A stretch of DNA of 64,000 nucleotides from Beroe forskalii (Eukaryota; Ctenophora; Nuda; Beroida; Beroidae), in contig WFMF01000246.1 in assembly GCA_011033025.1 (NCBI GenBank), positions 62,001 to 126,000 of the forward strand. Reading direction: 5' to 3'. Shown here in pieces: positions 19,301 to 50,300 of the stretch (position 1 is the first letter of the stretch; the number at the start of each line of letters is the position of its first letter). Below the pieces are notes generated by a model, which was not told the DNA's origin, did not search any database, and was given only the letters and a program-made list of their open reading frames with translations. The position numbers and the translations under genes were made by a program.

Positions 19301-22300
19301 GGAAACGAGGAATTAAGTGGACTGTAGAGGGAAATCTTTAATTGTTAACTAAACCGTTAATCATTCACCGTTATAAAAACCAGAAAAATGCATTATGAAA
19401 GCACCGAGCACGATTCAGCCCTATACTCTTATACTATAAACTTTTCGATCGCAGAGTCTCTGTTCAATGTTAAGTCTCGTAAGATCACGTCATGAAATAA
19501 TCATAAAGTTTATAAGTTTATAGTTAACCGGAGCAGGTTTGAGGTTCTTTCCCCTAGCAAAGTAGCCGTATGAGCCAGGAGTAAGGGCCGAGAGGGGGCG
19601 CTTCGCTGCAGCTTCTTTGGGCGTGGGGTTGTGTCGGATGCTTACAATGCCGTCATTGCACCCCGCCACTAGGTGAGTGTTGTGCGCCTGGGGGTTGAGA
19701 GGTGAGTGTTGTGCGCATGGAGGTTGAAAGGTGAGTGTTGTGCACCTGGGGGTTGAAAGGTGAGTGCTGTGCGCCTGTGGGTTGAAAGGTGAATGTTGTG
19801 CGCATGGAGGTTGAAAGGTGAGTGTTGTGCACCTGGGGGTTGAGAGGTGAGTGTTGTGCGCCTGGGGGTTGAAAGGTGAGTGTAGTGCGCTTGGGGGTTG
19901 AAAGGTGAGTGTTGTGCGCCTGGGGTTGAAAGGTGAGTGTTGTGCGCCTGGGAGTTGAAAGGTGAGTGTTGTGCGCCTGGGGGTTGAAAGGTGAGTGTTG
20001 TGCGCCTGGGAGTTGAAAGGTGAGTATTTTGCGCCTGGGGGTTGAAAGGTGAGTGTTGTGCGCCTGGGGTTGAGAGGTGAGTGTTGTGCGCCTGGGGTTG
20101 AAAGGTGAGTGTTGTGCGCCTGGGGGTTGAAAGGTGAGTGTTGTGCGCCTGGGGGTTGAAAGGTGAGTGTTGTGCGCCTGGGGGTTGAAAGGTGAGTGTT
20201 GTGCGCCTGGGGTTGAAAGGTGAGTGTTGTGCGCCTGGGGGTTGAATGTGAGTGTTGTGCGCCTGGAGGTTGAAAGGTGATTGTTGTGCGCCTGGGGTTG
20301 AGAGGTGAGTGTTGTGCACCTGGGGGTTGAATGTGAGTGTTGTGCGCCTGGAGGTTGAAAGGTGAGTGCTGTGCGCCTGGGGGTTGAGAGGTGAGTGTTT
20401 TGCGCCTGGGGGTTGAGACGTGAGTGTTGTGCGCCTGGGGTTGAGAGTTGAGTGTTGTGCGCCTGGAGGTTGAAAAGTGAGTGCTGTGCGCCTGGGGGTT
20501 GAGAGGTGAGTGTTGTGCGCCTGGGGGTTGAGAGGTGAGTGTTGTGCGCCTGGGGTTGAGAGGTGAGTGTTGTGCGCCTGGAGGTTGAAAGGTGAGTGCT
20601 GTGCGCCTGGGGTTGAAACGTGGAAGGGGTTGAAAGGTGCGTGTTGTGCGCCTGGGGGTTGAAAGGTGTGTGTTGTGCGCCTGGAGGTTGAGAGGTGAGT
20701 GTGGCTATCAATATCAGAGGGTTGTAAGAATACCCACAGCGTAAAGGGGTCCCTGTAACAATGGGATATTGAAACATTATTAACAAACAAAAACTGAGTT
20801 GAACGTAAGCATTTGCGTTGTTGGTCAATTGAAACAAGATTGATAATAAGGAATCCTAAACAGTTATTACGCCGCTGAATGAATGAATGAATGAAATGTG
20901 TTGACTTACAGTCGTTCCAACAGCGAGAACTGGGGCCGAGTATTTGATGGAATGAGTCACTTTGTAATCGCTCAAATCGTACATTTTCACTTGACTGCAA
21001 AGGTTGCAAAATTATGTTTTTTTAATAAGATTAATTTTTAGTAAATTCTGATTCATCTCTAACATACTTCATGCATGTAATTCTGTAATTTTAACATTTA
21101 TATAAACCCTCGGGTTTCGAACAAGTAGCCTCCAGGATGCAACATGATATTTTCTATCAATTTTCTACATTAATTATGCAGGACCCCTTCAGGATTTTTA
21201 GGAGTGACCCCAGAATATCTCACCACTCACTGGTCTAAAGAAACTAAAGCCAGGATGGGTATAGGGAAGGGGAGGGGTAGAGGGGGAGGGGAAGCGGAGG
21301 GGGAGAGTGGGAGGGGCATCCACAGAATATTACAACACCCAATGGTCATATCGCACTCACTGATCTAGAGATGCTGAGAGCAGTCTTCTGTTGGTGTGAT
21401 CAAGTGCTAAACAGGTGATGGTTTTCTGGTGGTTTGAAAGGGTGACTAACGGGCTGCCTCCTTTGTGAACATCCCATACCCGTACTTTGTTACTTCCTGA
21501 GAGGGTGTGCATTGTGTTACTTCCTGAGAGGGTGTTACGAATACCTGAGCTGATAGCAATACCTCCAGTGTTAGACAAATACCTGAGCTGATAGCAATAC
21601 CCCCAGTGTTAGACGAATACCTGAGCTGATAGCAATACCCCCAGTTTTAGACGTATACCTGAGCTGATAGCAATACCCCAGTGTTAGACAAATACCGAGC
21701 TGTTAGCAATACCCCTAGAGTTAGACGAATACCTGAGCTGATAGCAATACCCCCAGTTTTAGACGTATACCTGAGCTGATAGCAATACCCCAGTGTTAGA
21801 CAAATACCGAGCTGTTAGCAATACCCCTAGAGTTAGACGATTACCTGAGCTGATAGCAGTACTCCCAGTGTTAGACGAATACCTGAGCTGATAGCAATAC
21901 CCCCAGTGTTAGACAAATACCTGAGCTGATAGCAATACCCCCAGTGTTAGACAAATACCTGAGCTGATAGCAATACCCCCAGTGTTAGACGAATACCTGA
22001 GCTGATAGCAATACCCCCAGTTTTAGACGTATACCTGAGCTGATAGCAATACCCCAGTGTTAGACAAATACCGAGCTGTTAGCAATACCCCTAGAGTTAG
22101 ACGATTACCTGAGCTGATAGCAATACCCCCAGTGTTAGACAAATACCTGAGCTGATAGCAATACTCCCAGTGTTAGACAAATACCTGAGCTGATAGCAAT
22201 ACCCCCAGTGTTAGACGAATACCTGAGCTGATAGCAATACACCCAGAGTTAGACAAATACCTGAGCTGATAGCAATACCCCCAGTGTTAGGCAAATACCT

Positions 22301-25120
22301 GAGCTGATAGCAATACCCCAGCGTTAGACGAATACCTGAGCTGTTAGCAATACCCCCAGTGTTAGGCAAATACCTGAGCTGATAGCAATACCCCCAGTGT
22401 TAGGCAAATACCTGAGCTGATAGCAATACCCCCAGTGTTAGGCAAATACCTGAGCTGTTAGCAATACCCCCAGTGTTAGGCAAATACCTGAGCTGATAGC
22501 AATACCCCCAGTGTTAGGCAAATACCTGAACTGATAGCAATACCCCAGTGTTAGGCAAATACCTGAACTGATAGCAATACCCCCAGTGTTAGGCAAATAC
22601 CTGAGCTGATAGCAATACCCCCAGTGTTAGACAAATACCTGAGCTGATAGCAATACCCCCAGTGTTAGACAAATACCTGAGCTGATAGCAATACCCCCAG
22701 TGTTAGACGAATACCTGAGCTGATAGCAATACCCCAGTGTTAGACAAATACCTGGGCTGATAGCAATACCCCCAGTGTTAGGCAAATACCTGAGCTGATA
22801 GCAATGCCCCCAGTGTTAGACAATTACCTGAGCTGATAGCAATGCCCCCAGTGTTAGACAAATACCTGAGCTGATCGCAATACCCCAGTGTTAGACGAAT
22901 ACCTGAGCTGATAGCAATACCCCCAGTGGGCAGCACCACTACGCTCTCCACAGGTGCCCCGTGGTCTAGAGACAGCGAACTCTCTCCCGCTCCTCTTATC
23001 CCAAACACGCACAGTGTGGTCGTAGCTTCCTGGAGGGATTAGGAGGGTTTAAACCTATATAACCTGTTATAACCCTACTAATTCACAGGGCACCCCACCC
23101 ATTCAATTATATTGATTGGGAGCAACGTGAGTTGGGCGTTTTTCAGAGACTAACTTACGAAATATTCACATAGGCTGAACAAATAAATGAAAGGAAGACA
23201 CCTTGTTTGCCTAACCTTGTCCGGATCGGTTTAACTTTTTTATTAACATTTACCTTGTCGATAACGAAAGTAACATAAATCGGCGTTATAGCTTTATAGG
23301 AAATAGTCGCTTTTACTTTTTCTATTTATTTAGCTGTACCTGTTATCCATACGTCAGGAGACAGGGGAACGGAAGTAGCACTTCTGATGTAATCCTCGTG
23401 ACCGGTCATACACAACAACTCCTCTCCTGTAGGATTTGTTTAGGATTTCTGCCATTAGTAGAATACAATCACTCGGCGGTGCTGACGCAATCAATCTTCT
23501 ATAAACAAGAAAAGGAGCTGTAATGACTAATGCTCAGACAAACAAGTTTGCTGTCACCTGTAGGCAAGTCCCAGCATCTCAGGGTCTTGTCGTCTGCCCC
23601 ACTGATGATGTGCGTGTTGTCCTCACTGAACCTGGTCACGTGCACCGGTCTCACGTGACCTGTCAGCTGCCGGAGAATGGACCTGGTGCCCACCTCGAAC
23701 ACCTGTATCGGGAATCCGGGGATATCTGTTATCCAATATATTTTAGACTGGTGATATCTAATATTCAATATCATATTTTAGACGGTTTAATAAGTTTTTA
23801 CTGTCTACACTGTACCCCGTACCGTTCTGTTGACAATGGCCATTTACCATGGTAGGTACTACTACAGTGGAAACTTTCGCCATTGGTCACCACAGTCCAC
23901 AGCAATTCGCAACTACCTCTGAGTAATCCCAAATCATGTTACCAGGGGGTAAACTAGGTACCATGATGCCATAGTAACTACCTCAGGTATCTTCACACCC
24001 TGCCATCAATAGTTTCCAATGGTAACAACAAAAACCCCATAGGTATAGCAGGGTTTAAATCTGCGAGTACAACTTAAAAATGTGTCAAATTCCATTGATG
24101 AAAATGGTACCATGGATAAGTCCAAAATTCCCAAACAAAAACGGTGCCATTCCAGAAATGTGCTAACTTCCTGTATAAAAATGGTATCAGTTCCCGCCAT
24201 ATCGGAAAAAACCAAACTTACCAGAAAAATGGTACTATTTCAGAAATTTCCCAAAATTGCCCAACAAAAATAGTACCATTTCTGAAAAGAAGTATGGTAC
24301 ATTTGTCATTTACCAAAAATGTGGTTTAAAACCTGCCCCCATAAGCCCCGAAAAGTTAGACCCCCATTAATTGCCAATTTTCAACTCACCTGTATTGAGT
24401 TGTCCTCACACCCTGCTACCACAAGCTTTCCATCCTTTCTGATGCACCCCGAGTAAGCAGTCTTCTTAAACCTGCTGATGCTTTGCTGAACCTCGTTACT
24501 CTGCACGTTGTAGATGTTCACCTTAGAAGAGATTCTGGAGTTAAGAAGTGACTGCTTTGAGTCGAGTAGCACGGGATCGAGAGTGATCAACGCACTCTGT
24601 TCTTGCTAAATTATGCCTAATTGCTGTATTATTCGGTACCTTAGTCCCGGAAGTCACTGTGTAGCAGTAAGGTGGCTCGCAGGAGAATGAGAGATGGGTA
24701 GCCGCTCCGTACTCCTTCACAGCAGCAGCAAACTGAAAACAGCATCTGTGACGGAGGGAGAAAGGAAATTGAAAGCATCATTTCACATTCTGCAAACTTC
24801 CGACATAGGTATAGAGGAAGCCTACATCTAAACAAGTGCTGGAATATGTGGACAAGAGATCCATTCACCACTTACCTACCTATATCTTGAAAGTTCAAAG
24901 TTGAAAGGCTATAGGTCTTCTTGTTCTTCTTTAATGATCACCGGTTTCTAGTTACAACACCCGTAAAGTAAAATAAAGATATTTAGTTTAAGCATGCCAA
25001 TGATCCATGAACTATTTAGTTTCAAATTTACCTTGAACTTTTTCCAGAACCGAGTGTCAGGTGTAGCCTTACAAACAGTCTTTTGTGCTCTGGAATTATC
25101 AGTTTCTTGATGTCTGCCAT
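1337..25120 (-). CDS. UTP15: U3 snoRNA-associated protein UTP15 (12 exons, about 488 aa)
   Basis: Nucleolar WD40 protein of the t-UTP/UTPA subcomplex of the SSU processome, needed for 18S pre-rRNA processing. Exons on the minus strand: 25033-25120, 24640-24732, 24390-24521, 23558-23702, 23340-23426, 22903-23029, 21361-21496, 20910-20994, 19529-19687, 19195-19269, 18745-18928, 1337-1491. WD motifs include ISGADDKTLRCWDLPTG, GSYDHTVRVWD and NKVRVWDVHKGG. The UTP15 C-terminal domain follows (KYDLHLKRF; EVVVSVIQELCRRDALKRVL). The final exon (YSPVLGMSPSIDTLF) lies 17 kb away and joins in phase with the residues expected for the family. Human UTP15 is 518 aa. Exon 1 appears to lack one base in an A-run, and exon 6 appears to have one extra base in a GGGAGAGAG tract; these may be assembly errors or true lesions. 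The start is an ATG in good context giving MADIKKLIIPE. Two introns carry splice-site-derived minisatellites, and the last intron contains the ZP gene. Confidence 0.88.
1895..2310. repeat. Dispersed repeat with AAAATGGTNCCATT motifs, copy 1
   Basis: This contains several spaced copies of an AAAAATGGNNCCATT-like palindromic motif, flanked by C-rich segments of the CCCCCTTAAACCCCC type. The same two ingredients recur at 24010-24390, and a related C/G-rich block is at 5395-5485. The short open frame here (1933-2148) is repeat sequence, not a gene. Confidence 0.5.
3046..3262 (+). repeat. Dispersed repeat family, copy 1 of 3
   Basis: It shares AAATTTGAGCTTGCCAAGAA and flanking sequence, in inverted orientation, with 7060-7215 and 38866-39020. 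The other two copies read TTCTTGGCAAGCTCAAAT and end in an ATTATTCACGTG segment. All are probably fragments of one transposable element; the internal ORFs do not look like genes. Confidence 0.5.
4245..16456 (-). CDS. ZP-domain membrane/secreted protein, nested in a UTP15 intron (about 344 aa)
   Basis: Nine exons in consistent codon phase: 16330-16456, 16003-16101, 15456-15568, 15049-15136 (or its copy 12738-12825), 9276-9439, 7875-7978, 5607-5756, 4695-4819, 4245-4309. A signal peptide (CFFVWLVMLLSFNVAEA) is followed by a ZP-N module with the family pattern of cysteines, DLITYSNTLKF and VDITCTFD. ZP-C follows with LGDTLTFTV, SYAILEGG and FEFAAASNQLVSVTVMVC. Next come a cysteine pair, a furin-type site RRKRRS and a C-terminal hydrophobic tail (LNLTALLMVFAIAF) at the stop. 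This order (ZP, then cleavage site, then membrane tail) is typical of ZP polymerising proteins of egg coats and apical matrices. The tail has no cytoplasmic residues, so a GPI anchor is possible. Specific identity unknown. ATG choice is uncertain: 16411 gives a more compact signal peptide. Confidence 0.78.
5950..6010 (+). repeat. SINE tail remnant
   Basis: The stretch around 5972-5998 (GAATCCTTAAATTCCTGTCA, then TTGGC) matches the 3' part of the tRNA-derived SINE at 63247-63553 nearly base for base. The tRNA head is missing, so this looks like a 5'-truncated old copy inside a ZP-gene intron. Confidence 0.45.
6930..7000. repeat. Short tandem repeat, 15 bp, about three copies
   Basis: The unit GTCGAACTTCCGGGT is repeated about three times in an intron of the ZP gene. 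It lies next to copy 2 of the dispersed repeat at 7060-7215. It gives a shadow ORF with repeated EVRHP. Confidence 0.6.
7060..7215. repeat. Dispersed repeat family, copy 2 of 3
   Basis: It shares TGATTATAATCTGCACGTGC at its left side and TTCTTGGCAAGCTCAAAT to ATTATTCACGTG at its right side with 38866-39020. It is related in inverted orientation to 3046-3262. Confidence 0.5.
8220..8440. repeat. Degenerate tandem repeat with TCAAATGGGCCTGT motif
   Basis: Several imperfect copies of a unit containing TCTCAAATGGGCCTGT(G) are spaced by roughly 25-40 bases in a ZP-gene intron. The overlapping ORFs on both strands are explained by the repeat and match nothing I recognise. Confidence 0.45.
10235..10990. 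repeat. Large imperfect palindrome
   Basis: The left arm starts CATTATGCACCTTCCAGGC and the right arm ends with its complement (GCCTGGAAGGTGCATAATG). Both arms carry the segment CCCTATAGGCACCAGG or its complement and repeated GCGCAATAAATTATTGCGCA-type palindromes. The centre lies near 10610 and contains paired CCTCGGCCTTCGGCCTCGG hairpins. This would form a cruciform with arms of roughly 350 bp. Confidence 0.75.
11668..11770. repeat. Nested hairpin in the terminal repeat
   Basis: Concentric complementary pairs are visible: TACTACACAC with GTGTGTAGTA outside, then GGTGTGGATT with AATCCACACC, then ATATTCC with GGAATAT, closing on GGC-GAA-GCC. The copy at 9892-9990 has the same plan with more mismatches. 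Confidence 0.7.
11985..12660. repeat. 40-bp minisatellite, copy 1
   Basis: About 16 units of about 40 bp contain GTGAGTGGTGTCAAGGG and CCCCTGCTTATGAAG. Units vary by small indels. The same array recurs at 14390-14975 as part of a larger duplication that includes a ZP-gene exon. Each unit has a donor-like AAGTGAGT on the plus strand, but the gene is on the minus strand, and I found no exon from which this unit derives. Confidence 0.85.
12738..12825 (-). CDS. Second copy of an 88-nt ZP-N exon
   Basis: The sequence is the same as the exon at 15049-15136 as I read it (LKFTRDASQEVFLYPEASVD, then ITCTFDKSL), with the same acceptor (TCTCTTACAG) and donor (GTAAGT). It lies in the left copy of a duplication with flanking minisatellites. 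At 88 nt it is not a multiple of three, so using both copies together would shift the frame. It can only be an alternative to the other copy, or unused. Confidence 0.6.
12925..13255. repeat. Minisatellite with GGAAGCTCTCAGGGG unit, copy 1
   Basis: This is an irregular array of units such as AGTGGGCACTAGGAAGCTCT and GGGGTAGTGGGAATCTAGC just upstream, in gene sense, of the duplicated ZP exon. A shorter array of the same family is at 15232-15415. Confidence 0.75.
14390..14975. repeat. 40-bp minisatellite, copy 2
   Basis: This is the same unit family as 11985-12660, with about 14 copies. It is followed by near-identical single-copy sequence and the ZP exon at 15049-15136, which marks a 2.3-kb-spaced tandem duplication inside the ZP gene. 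Confidence 0.85.
15232..15415. repeat. Minisatellite with GGAAGCTCTCAGGGG unit, copy 2
   Basis: This is the shorter counterpart of 12925-13255, with about five units, also placed just 5' (in gene sense) of the duplicated exon. Confidence 0.7.
16457..18744. other. Gene-free part of the last UTP15 intron
   Basis: This lies upstream of the ZP gene start, so it should hold its promoter, but I see no TATA box or other clear element. A run of about 15 G residues sits at 17210-17224. A GGCCATGAT triplication lies near 17553-17580, and GGTGTACCCTGGGTGTACAC-like sequence is near 18530. The 114-codon minus ORF at 16751-17095 matches no family I know. Confidence 0.5.
19671..20706. repeat. 29-bp minisatellite made from the UTP15 exon 9 acceptor
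   Basis: About 35 units of about 29 bp. Read on the gene strand each unit is TTTCAACCCCCAG followed by GCGCACAACACTCACC. The true exon 9 begins with exactly those 16 bases after the same CCCCAG (exon high end at 19687), so the authentic 3' splice site is the array copy nearest the exon. Units differ mainly by one C in the CCCC run and by A/G changes. No frame contains a stop, which creates long meaningless ORFs of 394 and 446 codons on the minus strand. Confidence 0.9.
21484..21545. repeat. 27-bp tandem duplication of the UTP15 exon 7 acceptor
   Basis: On the gene strand CACCCTCTCAG|GAAGTAACA occurs twice, 27 bases apart. The nearer copy starts exon 7 (GSNKVRVWD). The farther copy would add nine residues in phase (GSNTMHTLS). 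Confidence 0.8.
21537..22927. repeat. 38-bp minisatellite made from the UTP15 exon 6 donor
   Basis: About 36 units. On the gene strand each unit contains CTGGGGGTATTGCTATCAGC then TCAG|GTATTYGTCTAACA. The first part is the last 24 bases of exon 6 (encoding TGGIAISS) and the second is its 5' splice site and first intron bases. The authentic donor (exon low end 22903) is the first unit. Some units differ by one C or by A/T and A/G changes, and near-identical sub-blocks recur, as expected from tandem expansion. Confidence 0.9.
24010..24390. repeat. Dispersed repeat with AAAATGGTNCCATT motifs, copy 2
   Basis: Five or six spaced AAAATGGTACCAT-like motifs lie between C-rich ends (AACCCCATAGG; AAGTTAGACCCCCATTAATT), as at 1895-2310. 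It lies in a UTP15 intron and ends only about 10 bases from the donor of exon 3. Confidence 0.5.
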
Positions 25121-25446
25121 GGCTCAAAAATTAGTCAAAATCATTGAGATGCAAAAAAAAATGATGGACTTTAAATCATGAAGATAGGGCGACATCCATG
25201 GATCATAACATTTCCTATGGATCAGGAAATTCTTGCAATACTCAATAGAACCAATTCTTCATTCCTGTTTGAATTTTTGTAGAATCTCAATTTTTCAAAC
25301 TTCAAAATAAGAAATAAGAAAAGACTCTTTCATATCATGTATCATATTCACATATTTACAAAAGTAATTCGCTTACGACTCTTAAAAAACCATAGACAAA
25401 TCTAGAAATACGTGACCCCGGTTTTTCACAACTACATCCATACCCC

Positions 25447-27552
25447 TCAAAACAGGATGTCATGGACCTGTACGCAGCAGTCTGACGCGCAGGTCACGAG
25501 TCTCCCCGTCTTATCCACCACGAGGCCCTCCACAGAGCCGTGGTGCAGCCTCTCTTGATACAGCACTCTTCCACTCACCAGGTCCCTCGTTATGAGGTAG
25601 CCGTTCTCAGTACCACACACTACCAGGACCTGACCTGCGCAGCTGCTGAACACCTCAGTGGCAAGAGTGCTACTGAGGATAGTGTTGTCAGTAGTGTTGT
25701 CAGTAGTGTTGTCAGTAGTGTTGTCAGTAGTGTTTTCAGGAGTGTTGTCAGTAGTGTTGTCAGGTATAGTTACCACAGTGACTTCACCAGGTGACGTTGC
25801 TGGTCTGATGATAACACCAAGGTAAGTCAGAGTACAGAAGCCTATGACACCCTCAGGGAGAGATAAAACGGACAGTTTGGTTCGTGTTTCAGTCTCCCGG
25901 ATTACAATAGTGTTGTCATCCGAACAACTGACAACCAAAGATAACCCAGCGTGGCGGATCCAGGCTAGACTTGTCACAGCGAGCGCGTGATCTCTGAACT
26001 CTGACACTGTTGTCTGAGATTCTAGGTCCGTGATTTTAACAGTTTGATCCTCAGAACAGGTTGCTATTTGGGTGGCACACGGACTAAAGACAAGGGACCA
26101 AACCTCCGCTTTTATACCGAGAGATCCGAATCTGAGATCGCAAGGTTCTACGCTGGGATGGTGTATTTTGAGGGAGAACAGGTGTGAGAGAATGGCAGAG
26201 GATCCACATAGCGTGATATCGTACATCTCAATAGCCCCGGTGACGAGCCCAAAACACAGTCTATCTGAGGTGGTCCTGATGCAGGTGATGGTGTCCTCGT
26301 GGTGCACTACGAGATCAGGAGCCCCACTCTCCGGACCCCACTGGAGCAGACACCCACTGAGGGTCCCAATGAACACCACCAGGGAGTCTTCTGCAGGTCG
26401 CACTGCAGCCAGACACCTGATACTATCGTCTATCTTTACTCTGTCAACAGGATTTGAAGAGGATGAGGTGTCCCAGATGAGGACATTGCCCGCGAGATCA
26501 CCACTGATTACACTAGTGTCGCAAACACACAGCCCACAACAAGAGATCTCGTGGAATAAGAACGGTGTTAATTTAGTTTCTAGAGCAGGCGCTGCATGGA
26601 TTTCAGATAAATCATGGACCCCAGAACCTGTTTCTAGACCCTTCAAAGCTTTCTCCTCGAATTCTACTCTGAACACCCCGTCGACCGTTCCAATCCAAAG
26701 CATGTTTCCCACCAGCTCCATAAAGCAACAGAAACTTCCAGGTCCCTCAAAAGTCCGCAGGGTACTTCCGTTTCTAACATCCAATATGACATACTTTTCA
26801 CAACTTCTCTGAAGCAGGATATTTTCAGGTGATACAAACTGAATGGCCCATATCGGTGACTTGGAAACACCCTTCAAATTATCGGATGGAATCTGCCGCA
26901 TGGTTTGTGTATCAAGGAGCATCAGATCTCTGCTCTGAAAAGCCAGGACTATGTACTTCTCATTGATGGCGTGTCCGATAGCAGCTGATTTCTCGGTCAG
27001 CAACTCGAACTTAGCCTCCAGTTCCATCTTCTCGTTGTACCGCAGGAGGGAGAACTGGGGCTCCACCCACTTCCAGACGTAGAGCCGGCCCCGGTGGCAG
27101 GCCACCTGCCACACTGCATCACGGAGCTCCTCCGAGACTCCGACCACGCCCCCCGCCCCCACCTCCACCACCACGACACTCCCCGGAGCGAAGTTACTCG
27201 TGCCCCGGGACAGCACCACGAGGTGGGAGGGAGTGAGGAACTTCACTGCGGCACAGGGGGGGTTAGGGGCGGGGAACGTGTATTTCAGTTGCCAGGTTTT
27301 GTCGTACACTGCCACCAATCCCGACCAATCACACGTTGCGTACAGCTGGGAGGACTGGCAGGCGAAGGTGATGATGCTCCTGTGAGGTGTTCTGATGCGA
27401 GGTGGAGGATCTGAGGTGGCGGGCGCTGAGGTGGACCAAGTCTTCATCTCACGTGACAGAGGGACACAGATAGAGTCCGGGGAGGAGACAATGGCTCCCA
27501 GAGTAATGGTGTGGCTCCCAAACACACGGGATTCCAGGGTAAAGTCTTCCAT
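25447..27552 (-). CDS. WD40-repeat protein of unassigned family (about 701 aa)
   Basis: This is a long uninterrupted frame with many WD-like blades: LYATCDWSGLVAVYDKTWQL, VISGDLAGNVLIWDTSS, EVWSLVFSPCATQIATCSED followed by QTVKITDL, LVVSCSDDNTIVIRETET, and a last blade SVEGLVVDKTGRLVTCASDC. No transmembrane segment or signal peptide is evident. I could not place it in a named family. The first ATG in frame encodes MEDFTLESR at 27552. The frame stays open upstream to a possible acceptor (GATATAG) near 27630, so an upstream exon may exist. A threonine/asparagine/aspartate repeat (TTDN)n interrupts the blades near residue 605. The stop lies about 330 bases upstream of the UTP15 start, on the same strand. 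Confidence 0.8.
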   Translation of the reverse strand: MEDFTLESRVFGSHTITLGAIVSSPDSICVPLSREMKTWSTSAPATSDPPPRIRTPHRSIITFACQSSQLYATCDWSGLVAVYDKTWQLKYTFPAPNPPCAAVKFLTPSHLVVLSRGTSNFAPGSVVVVEVGAGGVVGVSEELRDAVWQVACHRGRLYVWKWVEPQFSLLRYNEKMELEAKFELLTEKSAAIGHAINEKYIVLAFQSRDLMLLDTQTMRQIPSDNLKGVSKSPIWAIQFVSPENILLQRSCEKYVILDVRNGSTLRTFEGPGSFCCFMELVGNMLWIGTVDGVFRVEFEEKALKGLETGSGVHDLSEIHAAPALETKLTPFLFHEISCCGLCVCDTSVISGDLAGNVLIWDTSSSSNPVDRVKIDDSIRCLAAVRPAEDSLVVFIGTLSGCLLQWGPESGAPDLVVHHEDTITCIRTTSDRLCFGLVTGAIEMYDITLCGSSAILSHLFSLKIHHPSVEPCDLRFGSLGIKAEVWSLVFSPCATQIATCSEDQTVKITDLESQTTVSEFRDHALAVTSLAWIRHAGLSLVVSCSDDNTIVIRETETRTKLSVLSLPEGVIGFCTLTYLGVIIRPATSPGEVTVVTIPDNTTDNTPENTTDNTTDNTTDNTTDNTILSSTLATEVFSSCAGQVLVVCGTENGYLITRDLVSGRVLYQERLHHGSVEGLVVDKTGRLVTCASDCCVQVHDILF
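25675..25775 (-). repeat. In-frame 15/12-bp coding repeat (TTDN)n in the WD40 gene
   Basis: On the plus strand GTTGTCAGTAGT recurs seven or eight times with small variations. In the protein it encodes TTDNTTDNTTDN, a hydrophilic loop between two WD blades. The repeat keeps frame and is probably length-variable between alleles. Confidence 0.8.
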
Positions 27553-27585
27553 TATAGCGGGAGATAGTGCAGTCACTCGGTCCAA

Positions 27586-35556: not shown

Positions 35557-35608
35557 CCCGACTTCACTTAACTGAACTATCATTTAAATCCAAAGTCCTA
35601 ATTATAAA

Positions 35609-37366: not shown

Positions 37367-37680
37367 AAGATGAGACATTGGATTACTTTTTAAGAAAGCA
37401 AACAGTATTATTGGCAATGTAAGTATAATACCTATTATAATCATGGACTTTAGTTTCACGGAGCTAAAACTTCACAGACATTACTATTCATGCTTAATCG
37501 TGCCACTTCAAATTTTCAAAATTATAACATTTTTAATTTGATTTTTTTCTTCCACGATTTGCATACTTGAATTAAGATTTTCAATATATTTCTTCTTTGT
37601 AGAACAAACATTTTTCAATATATATTCATTAATATATATGCAATAAATTTTAATTTTGCAGTTACTTAGCATGGAGGTAC

Positions 37681-38865: not shown

Positions 38866-39020
38866 CTCGCATAGAAATGATTATAATCTGCATGTGCAGA
38901 ATACCTGTATCCATAGCAACGGCACGACTTTGCCCAACTTAGCCTTTGTTTCTCTTGATATTTTCTTGGCAAGCTCAAATTTAATTCGGTGCGGAAGCAC
39001 AAACATTATTCACGTGCCCT
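38866..39020. repeat. Dispersed repeat family, copy 3 of 3
   Basis: See copies at 3046-3262 and 7060-7215. This copy has TGATTATAATCTGCATGTGC at its left and ACATTATTCACGTGC at its right. Confidence 0.5.
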
Positions 39021-39235
39021 TACGAAATTATAATTAAGATTATTGATTTATTTAAGTTGTTTTTTGTTATTTGTATATATGTGCAATTAATAACCTAATT
39101 TCACTCATGATTATCTTTTGAGATTAAGAGAAATTGATGTAATTAATCTTTGTGCCGAAGGGGTAGGGGTCAGACAACGTCTGACAAAGATTTCTTTGTT
39201 TCAAATTTGTTTTATTTACCTTTTGTTATATTTTT

Positions 39236-42200
39236 TTTTTCAAAAAATTAAAGAAAATATAAATATCAAGTAATTTTTTTTTTCAAGTAATTTTCAAATA
39301 TAATTTGTAACAAATGCATTGTTATTCAAATCATACACACTCAGAAGTATGTTAATGGGTGTTGAGTAGGTGATGCGATGATAAGTTGAGCGTGATTCAG
39401 ATGTTAATTGAGCCTAGGATATCAAGGTGATTAGTGGTTCATAGGAAGGCGTGAGCAGTGAGTGACAAAGATGAAGTGCCTGAGTCACTGTGCTGAAACA
39501 GAGAAAGGAGCGAAGCAAGGGGAGAGCAATAGTGAAAGGTTGGGGTGGGGTGGGTTGGGGTGGGACTAGGGGATAGAACACCTGAAATCAAACAGAGGTC
39601 AACGTAGTGTGGCGGTAAGTGAGGCGGGATGGTGAAGAGGGTGCTGAGAAGCAAGGGGCGAAGAGCAAGCAGAAAGAACTCGAAAGATTGGGGCAGGGAC
39701 CTGGATTGTTCCAGTTGGGGCCTCACGCACCTCCCCCTCCCGAGTGTGCCAACTGCACTTCCCCATGCAGTTGGTATCATCCACACCTTCCACCTGCTGG
39801 GTACTCTCTTGTACCACTCACCAGCTAAGTATCATTTAAACCTCACTACCCAATCCCTCATAACTATTTAATAACTTTAATTTTACTTTATAACCACCCT
39901 TGCTCACTCTTTCTCACTGCTTTGATATTTTTACTTAATCCATTATAATACAGGTACACTAACCAAGTCTATCCTCAAAGAGATTATCAACCCATACATA
40001 TTATATACTGTAGCAACATGGACAGACCAGTACTCAACTTGTACAACACAACATCCAATATGACTTCCTCCCCCCAACTCTCAAAGGCTTCTCAAAAACC
40101 CCTGATGAGATTCCCACCTCATACAGCTAAGTAGTAAAGGGGTCCAAATCCCTCCCTAAGTCCCTCAGCACCATTGCAGCAAGATTTATTTTGTTTCCTT
40201 CTGGAAGCAGCTGTTACATTGGGGACCCCTGGTTGCATTATTCACCCCCTTTAACTGTCCAACTTTCTGCAAGAACCAGTAAGTAAACTCTTCTCTTTTC
40301 CCCCACTTTCATCACCCTCACCTGCTGGGTACTCTGTACTTCAAACCAGCTAAGTCTCATTACCTCACCAAATCCGTCAAGCAACAAATGCTTACACATA
40401 TTATAGACTGTTTAATTAAATATGATATACTGCTGCCCATATGGAAAGGATAACTCCCCAATAAATCTGATTTAGCAATGTTATCACGATTAATGAACAA
40501 CCTTCATGGATCTTCCCTAAACAGGAAAATTTCATACGTCCAAAATGCTAGACTAGACCCTGTATTCTGCTCAAATGAAACAGCAATACACATAGTATCG
40601 AAGACTGGCTAGCACTCTCCTAATAGGCGTTTAGAGAATAAAATATCAACTTTTCACTTAAAAATTTAACTTCAACCTACCTAAATCTCATACCAAGAGC
40701 GGAGTATTAACTGAACTTGAATGTAATGTCTTTGAGAAGATATTTCCCTGAAGCTGTTGATCATCATGGATCTATACACTAACATATATGACAAGTTTTT
40801 ATACAGCTTATCTTATTCCTAAAAGATTTTATGTGTCTATTTTAATTCTGAATCACCTGCGTGTAATTTGTTTATCACACTCAGCCTTTTATAAAGGTAT
40901 TTCACTGATAACGGTTTTATAATTCATGATATAATGCTGTGAGTATTTTTATGCGTGTAACTTGTAATGTAGCTCTGGTCCCACTAAACACACAGCTAGT
41001 AGGCTGCTTCCAATTTACACTTTGCTTTTACAGTTATAAAAAGGCTTAAAACGCTACATGTTCATTTTGTTCGATATTTTCGCCTCAATTTCAGCTTGAT
41101 AACGTGTTTTCAAATTCTCTTTTCTCAAACACAAGAATATAATTTAACCATTTTATATATGTTTGGCTCACCTGAGCCGATCAAGGAAACGTCAAAGGAT
41201 AGTCAAAGAACCCATGCTCTGCCCAAAACAACATAAACAAAACAGCAACAACAGCAAATATAACGACAACAACTGCAACAGCAACAACATTTAAATCAAT
41301 ATCAACAGTACTTTCCTTCTGTTCCAGGCAGTATCCTGGAACTGGGCTTTGCCCATTGAGCCCAGTTAAATCCCAATCGATGGGAATATGATTTACACAG
41401 TCTGGCTGGGTCAGGCCACCCTGTGATCCACTAGACAATGGGAGGTGGTACATAGCCACCTTCGGCTGATAGCTGACCTAATCTGCAGGCAAGCCCTGAC
41501 TTGTTTTGCAGTCCGTTTGAAGCCAGGGGCGTTGGTAGAATTCCAGACCTGCGTGGTCCAGGACTGGGTTCTGCTCTCAGCCCAGGATATAACCCGGCAG
41601 TCGGGTGGCCTAAAAACCACCCAGGAGTTCACACCCTTGGCCTAGTGTATAGGGAAGTCTCCATGCTCTGCATGGCTGCCACCGGCCTGGTTGATTAAAC
41701 CGACCTTGGCCATTTTACTAAGACTAAGACTAAGAACTCGAAAGATGAGAAAGAGATAGGAACGATGATGTCCCCCAGCCTAGGCATGCCCCACGCATGG
41801 GACACAAGCCCAACGGTACGTAGCCAGGCGAGTGTCGGAGAGGCACCTACTTCCCACACATATGTAGTAGGTGGCTGGATCACTACCAGCGCAAGTCGGA
41901 AACACCCCCTCTTTTCCACTCAGCCATCTGGGATCCAAACTGAGTGGGACACTTAGACAACACCATTACCTAGAAGGAGAAAGAAGTGGAAAGCAGGAAG
42001 TGAGTGAAGGGGAGGAAGGTTGACAAGGCTCACTGACTAGGTATTGATCTTATTGCCTGTCTTCTTGCACTTGAGGGACATTTTATACATACACTTGATA
42101 GCTCTAGTCACTATCTGTATGTGCTTCGAGAGTTGTTCCTCGGTGATAGCGTGATTTTCGTCTGAATTGGGAGTTATCTTCCCAATGCCGACGCTGTCAA

Positions 42201-42490
42201 GGGATAGATCTTTGTTGCAGTGTAGCTCCTGCAGCAGGGATAACATTCTTATTCTGTGAGACTCGCCAACTGGACAGTCTGAAAGAAGGTGTGATTCATC
42301 TTCGATGATACTCCTAACAGGTGCACAGAAGTCACATGATCTTTCTTCTCTGGGTATGTTAGAATGCCTGCCAATTTCAATATTGAGCTTATGTGCACTA
42401 CATCGTATCCTTGATGACATTTTTCTATCCTCAAATGATCGAGCGTGGTCAAGATATGGCTCCCAGGTGATAGACGTCTTGAGCTTAAAT
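39236..42490 (-). mobile_element. 3.25-kb retroelement insertion in copy A
   Basis: The duplicate copy reads straight through this point at 62979-62990 (CGTTATATTAATTT), so copy A carries an insertion. At its left edge GTTATATT is followed by a T-run, and GTTATATT recurs at its right edge. This fits a minus-strand retrotransposition with a poly(A) tail and an 8-base target duplication. The interior has one recognisable coding piece (42037-42420), CTAAGACTAAGACTAAG repeats near 41718, a (CAACAG)n-like stretch near 41240 and poly-pyrimidine sequence; it may be composite. Confidence 0.55.
42037..42420 (-). pseudogene. C-terminal zinc-finger fragment of a LINE pol protein
   Basis: The frame (HKLNIEIGRHSNIPREERSC; DFCAPVRSIIEDESHLLSDC) has the pattern HKL.IE.GR....PREER.C..C....EDE.H.L..CP. 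That pattern is typical of the C-terminal zinc-binding region of many invertebrate non-LTR retrotransposons. The RT itself is not readable upstream, so this is a truncated relic. It lies inside the insertion 39236-42490. Confidence 0.7.
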
Positions 42491-43159
42491 ATGTTATATT
42501 AATTTAAATTAATTTCACCATTTATTTTTTTGCAAAAATTACAACAGGAGAAGGCTGACTTGTTGCTACAGATCAGCAGTGCTCTTCCCCTTTCCCTGCT
42601 GGGGCTGCCCCAAGGGCCAAGACCACCTGATACTACTGGCTTTTATTTATTAAATCTGACAATAGTAAATAGCTTATACTATCACACTTCTTGCATAGGC
42701 ATAACATACACTTAAAAATAAACTGAAATTTAAATTAAGCCTTTTAGAATAAAAACTTTAGGCAAGTAAATTAGGGTCAATAGATAGATTATTCAAAAAA
42801 ATTTTTTCAGTATACTGTATTGGTTATTGATTAACATAAACTGTTACCAAGTACAAATTAAAAATGTTCCCTAATAATACAATGGTATCTGCACAGTTTA
42901 TAACGAGTTAAACAAATACAAAATTTGCATGCCCCTTATTAAATCTTTTCGCAGGATGCAGTTTATGTAGAGGTGCCCAACTCTAATCAAAGTAGTCAAA
43001 ATAGAATCAGAGATCATAATAAGCTAGATACAGTTCCCAATTTATAATTATGAACATAGAACAGTACACCTTAAGGAGTTCATGATAATAACCAAATCAA
43101 TTCATGTTACTACTGTGTTATACAGGATGTATGGAAGAACTTGAAAAAGTCCCTGCCCT

Positions 43160-43310
43160 AAGTCTTCAGTTAAAGGTTCTTAACAAAAGTCTCTGACAAA
43201 AGTCTTTGACAAAAGTCTTTAACAAAAGTCTTTGACAAAAGTCTTTGACGAAAGTCTTTGACAAAAGTCTTTGACAAAGGTCTTTGACAAAGTCTTAATA
43301 ACTGAATAAT
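43160..43310. repeat. 16-bp tandem repeat upstream of RPL28
   Basis: About eight copies of ACAAAAGTCTTTGACA/ACAAAAGTCTTTAACA. The same array lies upstream of the second RPL28 copy at 63125-63245, where a SINE has landed in it. It lies about 270-420 bases 5' of the ATG. Confidence 0.85.
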
Positions 43311-43349
43311 ACACTGGCTTAAAGGCCACTCTGCCCTTCAGGCAGTCCC

Positions 43350-43372
43350 TCACTTCCCTCTATCCTTCTCGT
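43350..43372 (+). promoter_or_regulatory. Possible 5' TOP-type pyrimidine tract of RPL28
   Basis: CACTTCCCTCTATCCTTCTC is conserved between both RPL28 copies about 215 bases before the ATG. Ribosomal-protein mRNAs usually start within such C/T tracts. The transcription start is not shown by the sequence, so this is a suggestion only. Confidence 0.3.
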
Positions 43373-43583
43373 TGAACAGTCAGAGCTTGCTTTCTCAGCT
43401 ATTTATTTAATATTTTACTCTAGTTTTTAAAATGCCTATGTCCAATTTATTAAACTCAGCCAATCATATTGGTATCCTAGTTAAAAATGATTTTTCTATC
43501 GGGAAATTGGAAGAAGCATAATATATTTAGTCTCGTAAATGTTATTTCTATTTCATTGATCTTAAATCTGAGGTAGGTGCATC

Positions 43584-43967
43584 ATGTCTGCTGAACTACA
43601 ATGGGCTATCATTCGCAACAACTCTAGTTTTATCACTAAAAGCCTTGGATCCACCCTCTCACGAGACCCAAACAATATAACTGGAACAAATTCCTTTAAA
43701 TGCAATGGGCTCGTTAACAAGCATGTAGTTGGAGTTAAGGCTGCAGATAAAGGTGTTGTTCTCACAACCAAATCCAGAGGAAAACTTGTCAGCACCACCC
43801 TATCCAGAGGCGGTCGGAGGACTATCAAAACCATCAGAGCTGCTTCTGAAGGCAGTCACTATCGTCCTGACCTTTCTGATGCTGCTATCAGGAAAGCATC
43901 TGCTATCATCAGGAGTCAAAAGAACAAGAATGTGGCCAAGAGGAGATCAAGAAAAGCAAAGAACTAA
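43584..43967 (+). CDS. RPL28: 60S ribosomal protein L28 (eL28), 127 aa
   Basis: Component of the large ribosomal subunit in the cytoplasm. The frame has the family pattern: ELQWAIIRNNSSFI near the N-terminus, FTRDPNN-type SRDPNNITGTNSFKCNGLVN, KTIRAASEGSHYRPDLSDAA, and a basic C-terminus (RRSRKAKN). Human RPL28 is 137 aa, so the length fits. The coding region is continuous without introns. An identical N-terminal half, with the same 5' region, is present at 63851 as part of a segmental duplication. There is no sign of retroposition (no A-tail, and the upstream region is co-duplicated). Confidence 0.95.
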   Translation: MSAELQWAIIRNNSSFITKSLGSTLSRDPNNITGTNSFKCNGLVNKHVVGVKAADKGVVLTTKSRGKLVSTTLSRGGRRTIKTIRAASEGSHYRPDLSDAAIRKASAIIRSQKNKNVAKRRSRKAKN

Positions 43968-44302
43968 TCAAATGTTGAATTTCCTTGTTTTATAAGTTAT
44001 TTTAACCGATATCACATGTTTCTTTACTGCTTTCTCTGCAAAATTATTCAGCAATACCCAACTAGTTTCTAGAAGTCTTCTTGATACATAGTAATCAGTC
44101 AGGAAGAGTTGCAGAGTTTAGAATGCCTGGTGTGATGTGTATAATTGTCTGCGAGGAACTTGTCAATTGTTTTTGTTGGGGTTCAGTAACTGTAAGTGTA
44201 ATAAGTTCAGGTGGTGTGGAGCATGGCTGCTCACATTCTTTCAATATAACATTTAGAACCATTCATAGGATTAGTTACTGGTGTCAGTGCACAGCCGTAA
44301 CA

Positions 44303-47300
44303 ATGTTCAAGCTCACAAAGTGCAGTGCTAACATCTGCACCAGAAACCTGCAGACCACTGCAGGACTCTTTCAGAGAGTTCCTATGAGCAAATTTGATCC
44401 AGAAACAGATGTCAGGGATAACTTTGCAAAGTGAGTTGAAAAAATGAACTATGTTAAAATTATGCAGGTTATACAATGCCAGTTCCAATTCAATTCAATT
44501 ATAAATTTTTACAGCACAAAACATGGAATATATTTTTTCTCTGGGTTATATAATGAAGCATAATTTGGGATGTGCTGAGGGTTGGCACCAGGGGCGTAGC
44601 CAGATTTCTGAAAAGGGGGCGGCGAGTTACATTCAAAACCTGTTTAATGTTTTATTTTGTTGGCTCAAAGCTCTCATTTTATCAAAATGAACAAAATTTT
44701 CATATCATCTGTCTTAAAAGGGGGAGGCGACCGCCTGTGTCGCCTCCCCCCTGGCTACGCCCCTGGTTGGCACCAAGACATTAAAGTCGCATGGTCAGGG
44801 AAAACTGACTAGGTTAGTGATAGACACAGATCCCTATTAACACTATTAACTTATGGAGATGTTCCCTCCAGGTTGCAGCAGAATGTTGATATTGTGAAAT
44901 CGCGACTTAGACGTCCATTAACGTTATCAGAAAAGATTGTGTATGGCCATTTAGATGAGCCTGAAACTGCAGATATTGCAAGAGGCGAATCCTGATATAA
45001 TGATATAATGGCGTTTTAGAACAATTCCAATGCCATCTACTGGCTGGTTGGCAGATTAACCAGCCAACCTTAACATACCATTTCTCACTTCCTTCAGAAA
45101 TTTCCTTATTCATAAATTTATCCAACAAGAGCAATGAGCTGGAATATAACTTGTTCTCCTTCCCAGGCGAATCCTACCTGAGACTGCGGCCAGACCGTGT
45201 AGCGATGCAAGACGCCACTGCCCAGATGGCCATGTTACAGTTCGTGGCAAGTGGCATCCCTCAAGTGGCAGTCCCCTCCACCATCCACTGCGACCATCTC
45301 ATAGAGGCTCAGCTCGGGGGTGACAAGGACCTGTCACGAGCCAAGGATATCAACAGGGAGGTCTACAACTTCCTCTCAACAGCAGGTCAGCGACACTTGC
45401 TATTCATACTTCATTCGTCAGCAAGTCAATTCTTCAATTGTGTGACACTTGGTATTGGTAGCCGTCAATCCTCTAAATTCACTGAGGAATTTCACAGAAT
45501 GTTTCATGATCAATTGATTATTGATTGCAAGGTAGACGTTTTTGCATCTTATTGGTCATTGCTAAGATCAATTAGAGAACATGTTTGAGAGGCTAAGAAT
45601 TATTGGATTTGTTTCCACCACTCTTATTTTCAGGAGCCAAATACGGAGCTGGGTTCTGGAAGCCTGGCAGTGGAATCATCCATCAGATCATCCTGGAGAA
45701 CTACGCTTATCCTGGAATCATGCTCATAGGTTACTAACGTCCTACCGAACGTTTTACCGAAAGTCTTACAACTTCTTACTACTTAGTAATATCTCATTAC
45801 TTAGTAATATCTCATATCTTTCTACTGATTGAATCTTGAAATATTGGTCAAACAAGGCAGCAAAATACACTTCCAAACCTAAGTTGTTGACCCATAAAAC
45901 ACTGAGTCTGACTATCATCCCACTCAGGCACTGACAGTCACACAGTGAACTATCGTCCCACTCAGGCACTGACAGTCACACAGTGAACTATTGTCCCACT
46001 CAGGCACTGACAGTCACACAGTGAACTATCGTCCCACTCAGGCACTGACAGTCACACAGTGAACTATCGTCCCACTCAGGCACTGACAGTCACACAGTGA
46101 ACTATCGTCCCACTCAGGCACTGACAGTCACACAGTGAACTATCGTCCCACTCAGGCACTGACAGTCACACAGTGAACTATTGTCCCACTCAGGCACTGA
46201 CAGTCACACAGTGAACTATCGTCCCACTCAGGCACTGACAGTCACACAGTGAACTGACCTTATTGTCCCACTCAGGCACTGACAGTCACACAGTGAACTA
46301 TCGTCCCACTCAGGCACTGACAGTCACACAGTGAACTATCGTCCCACTCAGGCACTGACAGGCTCAGGCACTGAACTATCGTCCCACTCAGGCACTGACA
46401 GTCACACAGTGAACTATCGTCCCACTCAGGCACTGACAGTCACACAGTGAACTATCGTCCCACTCAGGCACTGACAGTCACACAGTGAACTATCGTCCCA
46501 CTCAGGCACTGACAGTCACACAGTGAACTATCGTCCCACACAGTGAACTATCGTCCCACTCAGGCACTGACAGTCACACAGTGAACTATCGTCCCACACA
46601 CTCAGGCACTGACAGTCACACAGTGAACTATCGTCCCACTACAGGCACTGACAGTCACACAGTGAACTATCGTGAACTATCGTCCCACTCAGGCACTGAC
46701 AGTCACACAGTGAACTATCGTCCCACTCAGGCACTGACAGTCACACAGTGAACCAGTCACACAGTGAACTATCGTCCCACTCAGGCACTGACAGTCACAC
46801 AGTGAACTATCGTCCCACTCCAGGCACTGACAGTCACACAGTGAACTATCGTCCCACTCAGGCACTGACAGTCACACAGTGAACTATCGTCCCACCCAGG
46901 CACTGACAGTCACACAGTGAACTATCGTCCCACCAGGCACTGACAGTCACGATGAACTATCGTCCCACTCAGGCACTGACAGTCACACAGTGAACTATCC
47001 CACTCAGGCACTGACAGTCACACAGTGAACTATCGTCCCACCCAGGCACTGACAGTCACACAGTGAACTATCGTCCCACTCAGGCACTGACAGTCACACA
47101 GTGAACTATCGTCCCACTCAGGCACTGACAGTCACACAGTGAACTATCGTCCCACTCAGGCACTGACAGTCACACAGTGAACTATCGTCCCACTCAGGCA
47201 CTGACAGTCACACAGTGAACTATCGTCCCACTCAGGCACTGACAGTCACACAGTGAACTATTGTCCCACTCAGGCACTGACAGTCACACAGTGAACTATT

Positions 47301-50300
47301 GTCCCACTCAGGCACTGAGAGTCACACAGTGAACTATCGTCCCACTCAGGCACTGACAGTCACACAGTGAACTATTGTCCCACCCAGGCACTGACAGTCA
47401 CACAGTGAATGGAGGTGGATTAGGTGGAGTGTTTGTGGGAGTGGGTGGAGCTGATGCAGTGGACGTTATGGCCGGCATCCCTTGGGAGTTGAAGTGTCCT
47501 AAAGTCATCGGGGTTCACTTGACAGGTGTGTTAGATTAACCGAATTATCCGCCTCAATACCTCAAAGCACAAGGTAAACAAAATTTTCAAAAATACGTGA
47601 TGCGGTACCTTTAATCAATGGACTACAGGAGAGGCTACAGAATTTATTTACAGTTTTACTTTGTTTTTGAATTACATACCATATCCTCAAATCCCCGGTT
47701 TTCTCAGGAGAGATCAGCGCGTGGACATCCCCCAAAGACGTGATCCTCCGGGTAGCAGACATCCTGACAGTAAAAGGTGGCACAGGAGCCATTGTGGAGT
47801 ACTTTGGTCCCGGTGTCCATTCCCTCTCCTGCACGGGAATGGGGACTATCTGCAACATGGGAGCTGAGATCGGCGCCACCACCTCCATCTTCCCTTACAA
47901 CGAGAGGATGGCTCGTTACCTCCACGCCACTGACAGAGGAGAGATAGCCAAGGTGGCAGACCAGTACAAGAACTTGCTGGAAAGCGACGAAGGGGCGGAG
48001 TACGATGAAGTTATTGAGATAAACCTGTCGGAGCTGAAACCCCTGATTAACGGCCCCTTCACCCCCGATCTCTGTACCCCAGTGTCTGAGATTGGAGACA
48101 GGGCCGAGAAGGAGGGCTGGCCCACCGAGGTAAAAGTGGGTCTGATAGGGAGTTGTACCAACTCCAGCTACGAGGACATGACACGCTCTGCCAGCATCGC
48201 CAGACAGGCCCAGGAGAAGGGCCTCAAGTTCAAGTCCCTGTTCACCATTACTCCGGGATCTGAACAGATCAGGGCGACTATTGAACGGGATGGCATCGAC
48301 CAGCCACTCCGGGACATTGGAGGCCTAGTCCTGGCTAACGCCTGTGGGCCGTGCATCGGGCAGTGGGACCGACAAGACGTTCCCAAGAACGAGAAGAACA
48401 CGATAGTGACGTCATACAACAGGAACTTCACAGGAAGAAACGACGCTAACCCCAACACCCACGGCTTCGTGGCGTCCCCTGAGATAGCCACCGCCCTGGC
48501 CCTGGCGGGAACTCTCAAGTTTAACCCTGAGACGGACTCACTGCTGGACAAGGACGGCAAGGAGTTCATGCTCGACACGCCCTATGGAGATGAGCTGCCG
48601 GCTGCTGGCTTCGACCCTGGCGAGGACACCTGTAATGTATATTTTATCTGATAGAATTGAGACTCCTCTGCTTTTATGACAAGACTTGTTTCCAACCTTA
48701 GGTTTCTAGTCCAATGTCTTATCTATAGAGGTGTATGGGTATACTACAAACATAACAAAATACTGTACATCGATTTTCTAATTCAAGGATTGACATAAGA
48801 GGCGGAAGAGACTAAACTGTGAATCATCAGCGGTTACCCTACAGTTGTAAGGTCTCCCCTGCCATCTGCGATGTAGGTGTCCCATCAGCAGGTGACAAAG
48901 GGAAACGGAGGGTTTCGGCCCACGTACCCCTCACAGCTTACAACTGCAGGGCTGGGCCACCCAGGACTCCGGATTCCTGAGCAACACAGTTTAGAGGGAA
49001 GGGGGAGGAAAAGGAAAGAGTTCAGTAGAGGCAAAAGATCAATGAGTGTTATTAAATTCGGATGAAACATCTTAATGTTACGCTATTTAAAACCTGAAAG
49101 TGGAAGTTAAAATGAATGGGAGGTTACAGGCATCTGCCTGTCAGCCCCACATTCAGTCCCAGGCTAATCATACAGTAAGTTGCTCAAGGTCAGCAACAAG
49201 CTGCACAACTATCCAGTACAGAATGTGAAGAACCTCGCGTGCCAATACCTAAACAAATTGATCTAAAATTGTACTGTTATCTAAAATTGCATATTTCTGA
49301 AAGACTAAGCTATTCTTATTAAGGCAACGTTTGATAATGTCTACAAGATTGGAGTTACTATATCCTCTTTCAATCAGTTTTTGGAAAACTTTTTAAGATT
49401 GAAGAGGAAAGTTTCTAATTCAGTACAAATGTTAGCATACCTAAGGATTTGACTATAGAATACATTATGGCCTACTTCTAGAGGGATATTACTCTGTGGA
49501 AATGTTAAGGAAACTACAGAGAAATTAAAGTCATCGGTCTTGTTATATACAGACACAATAACCTTGCTTGGTTGGATAGAAATATTGAGGTCCAGGTAGT
49601 TCACGTTCTTGTTGTCATTACCTGACCTCTCCATTTCAAGAGAAGAATGATAGATTTGTTTGATTAGAGCTTCAAAGTTGAGATAATAAGTGGTGATAAG
49701 ATCATCGACGTAGCGTCGTGTTTTAGAAAGAATCTTAGCTAGGGAAAACTTTTTGGACTTTAACCCAGATTGGACAGCTTTTTTGTTTCTCGATAAAAAT
49801 CGATGAAATTTTAGTCAGTAGGTGCCATTGGTCTAACTAAGAAAATAAATCAGTATTTTTGAGTATATGTTTTACCGTTCTCGAGAAATCGATGGGGTGG
49901 AAATCCACCCCTTTGTCCAATTAGCCAGAGGTCGTTCGAAAAAAAAGTTTCATAAAATTTCAATCTGAATGATTTATTTCACTATTTATATGGTTTGGTA
50001 CGGTGAACAAAACTCCTTTTTCGACAATATTTGTCCGTTCAGGATTTTGGGGTGGAAAATCACCCCTTTGTCCAATATGAAGTATGAAATTTCAGATGAT
50101 TAACAAATATGTTACCATTGAAAGAATAACGTGCCAAGGTGATTTTTGGCGATTTCTGTGACAAAATATTCATGCTAGAACTGGTTTTACCTAAGAAAAT
50201 GGTATATTTTCGGGATTTGGGGTGGAAAATCACCCCTTTGTCCAATATGTGGGTACAGGTCGAAATGACGAAAATCGATCTGAGGGCCATAAAACTGAAT

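Follow-up and report, generated by a model that had tools for sequence, protein, structure and literature searches.

Genes and tandem arrays of the locus

The stretch of DNA analysed here (64,000 nucleotides, hereafter the window) belongs to the ctenophore Beroe forskalii (GenBank assembly GCA_011033025.1, contig WFMF01000246.1, positions 62,001 to 126,000 of the forward strand) and harbours three long minisatellite arrays located at splice junctions of two genes. UTP15, which lies on the minus strand, hosts arrays A1 and A2, and the mitochondrial aconitase gene ACO2, on the plus strand, hosts array A3. The arrays, delimited by Tandem Repeats Finder (TRF), and the neighbouring exons are as follows (positions are those of the window):

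19529..19687, minus strand: UTP15 exon, the start of which (AHNTHLVAGCNDGIVSIRHN...) is repeated in A1; protein alignment, end site by eye
19671..20702, minus strand: array A1, 29-bp unit, 33.2 copies (TRF), UTP15 acceptor
21361..21496, minus strand: UTP15 exon 3' of A2 in the gene (SNKVRVWDVHKGG...); protein alignment
21488..21535, minus strand: 27-bp two-copy duplication at the acceptor of the A2 intron, ACACCCTCTCAG/GAAGTAACA
21540..22928, minus strand: array A2, 38-bp unit, 36.8 copies (TRF), UTP15 donor
22903..23029, minus strand: UTP15 exon, the end of which (...PVESVVVLPTGGIAISSG) is repeated in A2; protein alignment
45634..45729, plus strand: ACO2 exon upstream of A3; protein alignment
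45911..47409, plus strand: array A3, 38-bp unit, 39.0 copies (TRF), ACO2 acceptor
47388..47525, plus strand: ACO2 exon, the start of which is repeated in A3; protein alignment

A preliminary description of this DNA had claimed three arrays in two genes, each with a unit straddling a splice junction, and this is borne out by TRF, which detects units of 29 bp (x33), 38 bp (x37) and 38 bp (x39) at the places described, as well as by protein alignments that are gapless at the junctions. In gene orientation, the unit of A1 (TTCAACCCCCAG/GCGCACAACACTCACCT, the slash marking the junction) consists of the acceptor TTCAACCCCCAG and the first 17 nt of the UTP15 exon, that of A2 (CACTGGGGGTATTGCTATCAGCTCAG/GTATTTGTCTAA) of the last 26 nt of a UTP15 exon and 12 nt of intron with the donor GTATT, and that of A3 (CTATCGTCCCACTCAG/GCACTGACAGTCACACAGTGAA) of 16 nt of intron ending in CAG and the first 22 nt of the ACO2 exon. 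The exonic share had been given as 16-24 bases, which is nearly right (measured: 17, 26 and 22). The expansion away from the exon, also described, is true but carries no independent information, since an array of junction-spanning units necessarily lies between exon and intron.

The UTP15 peptide spliced over A1 and A2 aligns with human UTP15 without gaps at both junctions (E 4.7e-45), the query bridging an apparent one-base frame shift in the exon near 22970. The ACO2 peptide spliced over A3 aligns with mammalian ACO2 without gaps over 79 residues (E 2.6e-43). The conserved UTP15 exon near 22970 needs two frames, which points to either an assembly error or a broken copy.

Junction arrays outside the window

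The sample comprised 14 further stretches of 10 kb, two of which (L004 and L005) lie beside the window and twelve of which (L006-L017) were chosen by contig number; arrays were accepted at a TRF period of 15-200 and a length of at least 70 bp. In the 204 kb formed by the window and the 14 stretches, 46 arrays were detected, 9 of which were assigned to splice junctions by inspection and 37 left unassigned. The 12 unselected stretches accounted for 29 arrays, including six junction arrays that were assigned by homology (two), comparison of paralogues (two) or an open frame alone (two):

L016:33-924: acceptor of a JNK exon; homology, E 7.1e-18
L011:1-3722: donor of an exon of RNA polymerase III subunit RPC2 (POLR3B); homology, E 7.1e-9
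L012:8423-8678: donor in a G protein-coupled receptor (GPCR)-like gene; exons conserved among paralogues
L012:9003-9125: acceptor in the GPCR-like gene; exons conserved among paralogues
L006:2797-2970: junction array; open frame alone
L017:4364-5516: junction array; open frame alone

Both kinds of splice site are affected, namely donors (A2, L011 and L012:8423) and acceptors (A1, A3, L016 and L012:9003). The array L012:1823-5406 (79 bp x46) was considered as a further junction case and left uncounted on account of its poor donor. No Pfam match was obtained for the GPCR-like peptide or for two L017 peptides; the names GPCR-like, ALDH, carboxypeptidase and SPRY gene were assigned by reading the translations. 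Another exon of POLR3B carries a 15-bp unit in three copies over its donor (L011, about 4893-4948, minus strand), outside the TRF list.

Comparison with chance expectation

In a genome rich in tandem repeats, ordinary intronic minisatellites might meet exon edges by chance. The density of arrays (46 in 204 kb), 37 of which have no junction assignment, is in line with such an explanation, and so are the short introns, which make overlap with exon edges common: the 34 annotated introns, taken without their arrays, have a median length of 203.5 nt, three of the lengths being assumed and several having had the array length subtracted. However, an excess was revealed by each of two tests.

In the first test, every array received a blind score, composed of splice signal and codon usage (with a codon table from three open reading frames of the window) and calibrated on random positions of the same sequences. 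A score of P<=0.05 was reached by 10 of the 46 arrays, compared with 2.3 expected, and by 7 of the 34 outside the window (1.7 expected). Seven of the ten hits are junction-assigned arrays, the remainder being L012:1823, L017:3479 and window 30723.

The second test employed a placement null, under which a seed is tolerated at any place but wholly within an exon. Eight of the ten arrays of annotated introns straddle a junction, compared with 2.67 expected (P 5e-4; inclusion of the long transposon-bearing ACO2 intron lowers this to 1.5e-5); the two non-straddling arrays are L017:3479-3816 and window 55173-55266. For the sample loci alone, the figures are 5 of 6 and 1.77 expected (P 0.009). Subtraction from the ten of three arrays with an unseen far intron side leaves 5 of 7 (P 0.012). 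Dropped from this first version of the test were L005:5205-5586 (period 204), the 53-bp array at window 21264-21316 and a group of six at 8359-15416, the last being intronic if the final UTP15 intron really extends over 17 kb. With L005:5205-5586 and the group of six restored in a second version, the straddling share becomes 8 of 11 (P 9e-4) and, given the long last UTP15 intron, 8 of 16 (P 6e-5).

Hence, the blind score and the placement null agree, in small samples, that arrays hit splice sites of several unrelated genes beyond chance, as had been proposed beforehand, and random encounter of minisatellites with exon edges is an improbable explanation of the pattern. With 8 straddling arrays against 2.67 expected, tolerance alone also falls short in this small sample.

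Array-free sister genes and the order of events

A second ACO2 gene is located on the same contig downstream of the window (L005, 893-5961), about 20 kb from the window copy (44873-55674). The twins differ by 2 amino acids in 687 codons (synonymous divergence, dS, 0.110; nonsynonymous divergence, dN, 0.0019). In the L005 twin the intron matching that of A3 is 378 nt long and contains one unit (...GACTATCATCCCACCCAG/GCACTGACAGTCACACAGTGAACGGAGG) against 39 in the window, and a genome search with this stretch of the twin's intron matched the twin and the window gene alone. The twins are either tandem paralogues or a second haplotype misplaced in the assembly; the array-free state exists under either alternative.

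Two paralogues of the GPCR-like gene of L012 were found in the stretches L019 and L020 (79% and 77% identity over 186 nt), with dS of 0.20 and dN of 0 between them over 124 codons. Intron 1 occupies the identical place in both, and its acceptor is single, compared with 3.2 copies in L012. The donor of intron 2 is present in 5 copies of 48 bp in L012 and singly in L020; L019 has 2 copies of another unit, about 35 bp long. The acceptor of intron 2 was identified in L012 and L019 but not within the L020 stretch.

Because the matching introns of the sister genes lack the arrays, A3 and the two arrays of the GPCR-like gene are younger than their introns. Furthermore, the different duplication units in L012 and L019 indicate that the GPCR-like donor has been struck more than once. 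No second UTP15 gene was found by the genome search, the other matches being of 27-32% identity; A1 and A2 presumably share the origin of the other arrays.

These data bear on the possibility that the arrays are scars of intron birth, left when a segment of exon is duplicated (Rogers model) or when an insertion duplicates its target, and expanded later. Intron-insertion target duplications, invoked in the preliminary description, are rejected as the source of A3 and the GPCR-like pair, since sister introns without arrays place the intron first in these cases. Some features of intron ends nevertheless speak for intron birth. The A2 intron without its array amounts to 48 nt of what seem to be degenerate copies of the start of the next exon. 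In 30 hand-annotated introns, moreover, the mean repeat shared by a donor and its own acceptor is 4.0 nt, compared with 3.02 nt for mispaired sites (permutation P 5e-5), and a shared repeat of at least 7 nt occurs in 7 of 30 own pairs versus 2.2% of 870 mispairs (P 5e-5). Comparison of the medians gives P 0.009, and removal of the two longest repeats gives P 0.003 and 0.0003; the boundaries were picked by hand and the result is open to other paired-site biases. Two ACO2 introns of the window are flanked by long repeats of this kind:

44983..45175, plus strand: ACO2 intron with an 11-nt exon direct repeat, AGGCGAATCCT (44983-44993, 45165-45175)
48604..54525, plus strand: ACO2 intron with a 28-nt exon direct repeat, 1 mismatch (48604-48631, 54498-54525)

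The second of these introns and its counterpart in L005 (about 3320-3515) have an exon direct repeat of 21-28 nt at both ends, and no canonical GT-AG pair removing exactly one repeat copy was found by eye in either ACO2 copy. Exon-derived direct repeats at intron ends would be expected if introns had arisen through duplication of exon DNA. The excess, however, is one over 30 introns and not a feature of the arrays themselves, and an origin of the arrays in intron birth seems very doubtful.

Short duplications at splice junctions

The preliminary description had also considered breakage at the junctions themselves, which would make them hotspots of tandem duplication (through R-loops or transcription- or splicing-linked breakage) over and above any tolerance. 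The predominance of straddling arrays among those of introns (8 of 10 versus 2.67 expected) is consistent with such a preference, and so is the duplication of the same GPCR-like donor in two paralogues with units of 48 bp (x5) and about 35 bp (x2). Short duplications (exact run of at least 10, period 8-120) were found over 3 of 54 junctions, those with large arrays being left out, and over 22 of 2097 control positions (1.0%) once the arrays, together with the surroundings of the three duplicated junctions, had been masked (nominal P 0.023). At a run of at least 12, the 3 junctions stand against 12 masked control positions (nominal P 0.0055), whereas at a run of at least 8, 4 junctions stand against 83 (P 0.17). 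With arrays left in, the control gives 70 of 2268 positions and there is no clear excess. It also tells against a hotspot that simple G-rich sequence makes up one of the three junction cases (the L014 donor), that four run thresholds were tried and that large-array junctions were left out. The P values are nominal because the control positions lie 5 nt apart and are not independent, with hits from 9 of the 54 neighbourhoods. The results are thus suggestive of a junction hotspot for short duplications and not more; as the explanation of the arrays, junction-directed duplication is possible, though unlikely.

Conservation of copies and predicted splicing

The arrays are homogenised, their copies being 93-98% identical to their own consensus, and the splice dinucleotide is kept in 32 of 36 copies of A1, 37 of 37 of A2, 38 of 40 of A3, 83 of 93 of the L011 array and 51 of 52 of the L017 array. 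Ranked by conservation among the other positions of the unit, the dinucleotide is the best kept in A2 (1/37) and third in L017 (3/21); the ranks in A1, A3 and L011 are 14/28, 13/37 and 22/39, respectively. Selection holding every copy as a working splice site was therefore rejected, as in the latter three arrays the dinucleotide is kept no better than other positions.

The suggestion that all copies are functional splice sites holds insofar as the dinucleotide is mostly kept, and is not matched by the reading frames. Of the 39 acceptors of A3 and the 28 exact donors of A2, just one each, the exon-side copy, yields an open reading frame; in A1, 10 of 32 acceptors do so. Judging from these counts, correct splicing would have to take the outermost site or lean on decay of the rest. 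None of the three sense frames of A1 contains a stop codon (open lengths of 404, 400 and 450 aa), so in-frame use of an inner acceptor would add peptide repeats.

Other features

The window also contains a local duplication with an offset of about 2.4 kb (11979-13239 and 14390-15416) bearing two different arrays with units of 40 and 42 bp; the blind score marked none of its four arrays (11979-15416) as junction-spanning. A coding 12-bp array of 7 copies (Thr-Thr-Asp-Asn) is present at 25680-25763 in a single-exon WD40 gene, the product of which has four matches at E<=1e-10 among 8000 candidates scored, including one in Mnemiopsis leidyi (55%). Ribosomal protein L28 of the window shares 68-85% identity with its 16 best-matching proteins, one of which bears a EukProt name in the style of Pleurobrachia, and 50-51% with those of Actinia, Exaiptasia and Hydra. 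The beginning of the 18S gene shows non-bilaterian features. These comparisons make a ctenophore very likely as the source, and not a lancelet. The long open frame at 59069-62068 is presumably a LINE-like retrotransposon, and the sequences at 53065-54494, within an ACO2 intron, are taken to be pieces of a Penelope-like element. In the genome at large, many kinase domains are each contained entirely in one open frame of about 300 codons, which may reflect an intronless-kinase expansion.

Discussion

According to the preliminary description, no named system of this kind was known. In lancelets, however, similar structures are called "mirages", and those of Adh3, described by Canestro et al. in 2002, are reportedly subject to somatic instability. 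Lancelet mirages have the same architecture as the arrays described here (PMC3087553, PMC3902484): they are minisatellite-like duplications of exon/intron boundaries at both exon ends, with AG or GT in many copies. Their lengths vary from one haplotype to another, and normal splicing seems, from the data, to be preserved (PMC3087553). They occur in the globin genes BflGb6 and BflGb9, that of BflGb6 at an intron conserved globin-wide (PMC3087553), and also in PGBD5 and troponin C (PMC3902484). In common with them, the arrays of B. forskalii consist of part-exon, part-intron tandem units at a donor or acceptor, with splice signals in many copies. They differ in their ctenophore host, in reaching up to 93 copies and in accounting, by the assignment made here, for 6 of the 29 arrays in the unselected stretches; furthermore, splicing of the lancelet mirages is backed by reverse transcription PCR, that of the ctenophore arrays being predicted. 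The intron gain described for potato RdRp (PMC4974935) shares the first step, a short tandem duplication across an intron-exon boundary. At the present arrays no new intron is seen, and those of ACO2 and the GPCR-like gene lie in introns older than themselves.

A literature search, from which most subscription journals were outside coverage, found the pattern under a name in lancelets only and returned no ctenophore paper on such arrays. The minisatellite at an exon edge of human IFI6 (6-16) offers many splice donors in 12-bp units at one locus; it resembles the present arrays in its position and its many donors, and differs from them in that several genes are affected here.

We consider the arrays to be mirages, that is, minisatellites seeded at pre-existing junctions, amplified and tolerated, and assign to this reading a probability of roughly two in three. 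A short tandem duplication would take in an existing splice junction, and slippage or unequal exchange would amplify the duplicate into an array. Splicing at the outermost site, beside the intact exon, would then restore the original mRNA, with the copies being in effect all intron, and this may be the reason why the arrays persist. Junctions would often be caught in repeats because of the high rate of tandem repeats and the short introns (median of about 200 nt); tolerance, and not junction-directed breakage, probably accounts for most of the pattern.

Several observations weigh against this explanation. Three of the ten blind-score hits are not junction-assigned arrays, A1 (P 0.055) and the L006 array (P 0.091) miss the cut-off, and at stricter levels the score yields 2 of 46 arrays versus 0.46 expected (P<=0.01) and 0 of 46 versus 0.23 (P<=0.005); the score is thus weak for individual arrays. 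The placement test covers 10 arrays in genes that were partly noticed through their arrays, and arrays within introns of unannotated genes may escape it. One must also bear in mind the ten A1 acceptors that yield an open product as well, and the excess over tolerance (8 vs 2.7) and over the masked controls, which leaves room for a junction preference. A wider scheme, in which exon edges undergo continuing, junction-biased tandem duplication that gives rise to mirages as well as to new introns, with arrays, two-copy states and repeat-flanked introns as stages of one pathway, appears rather unlikely.

If the preferred interpretation is right, the arrays belong to the known class of mirages, and what is new is the phylum, the Ctenophora, together with clear before-and-after copies. 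Mirages would then reach a second, distant phylum, and not rarely there. The one-, two- and many-copy states of sister genes would allow measuring how such arrays start, and the arrays would also provide a handle on how the spliceosome faces dozens of equal sites and on whether edge duplications feed intron gain.

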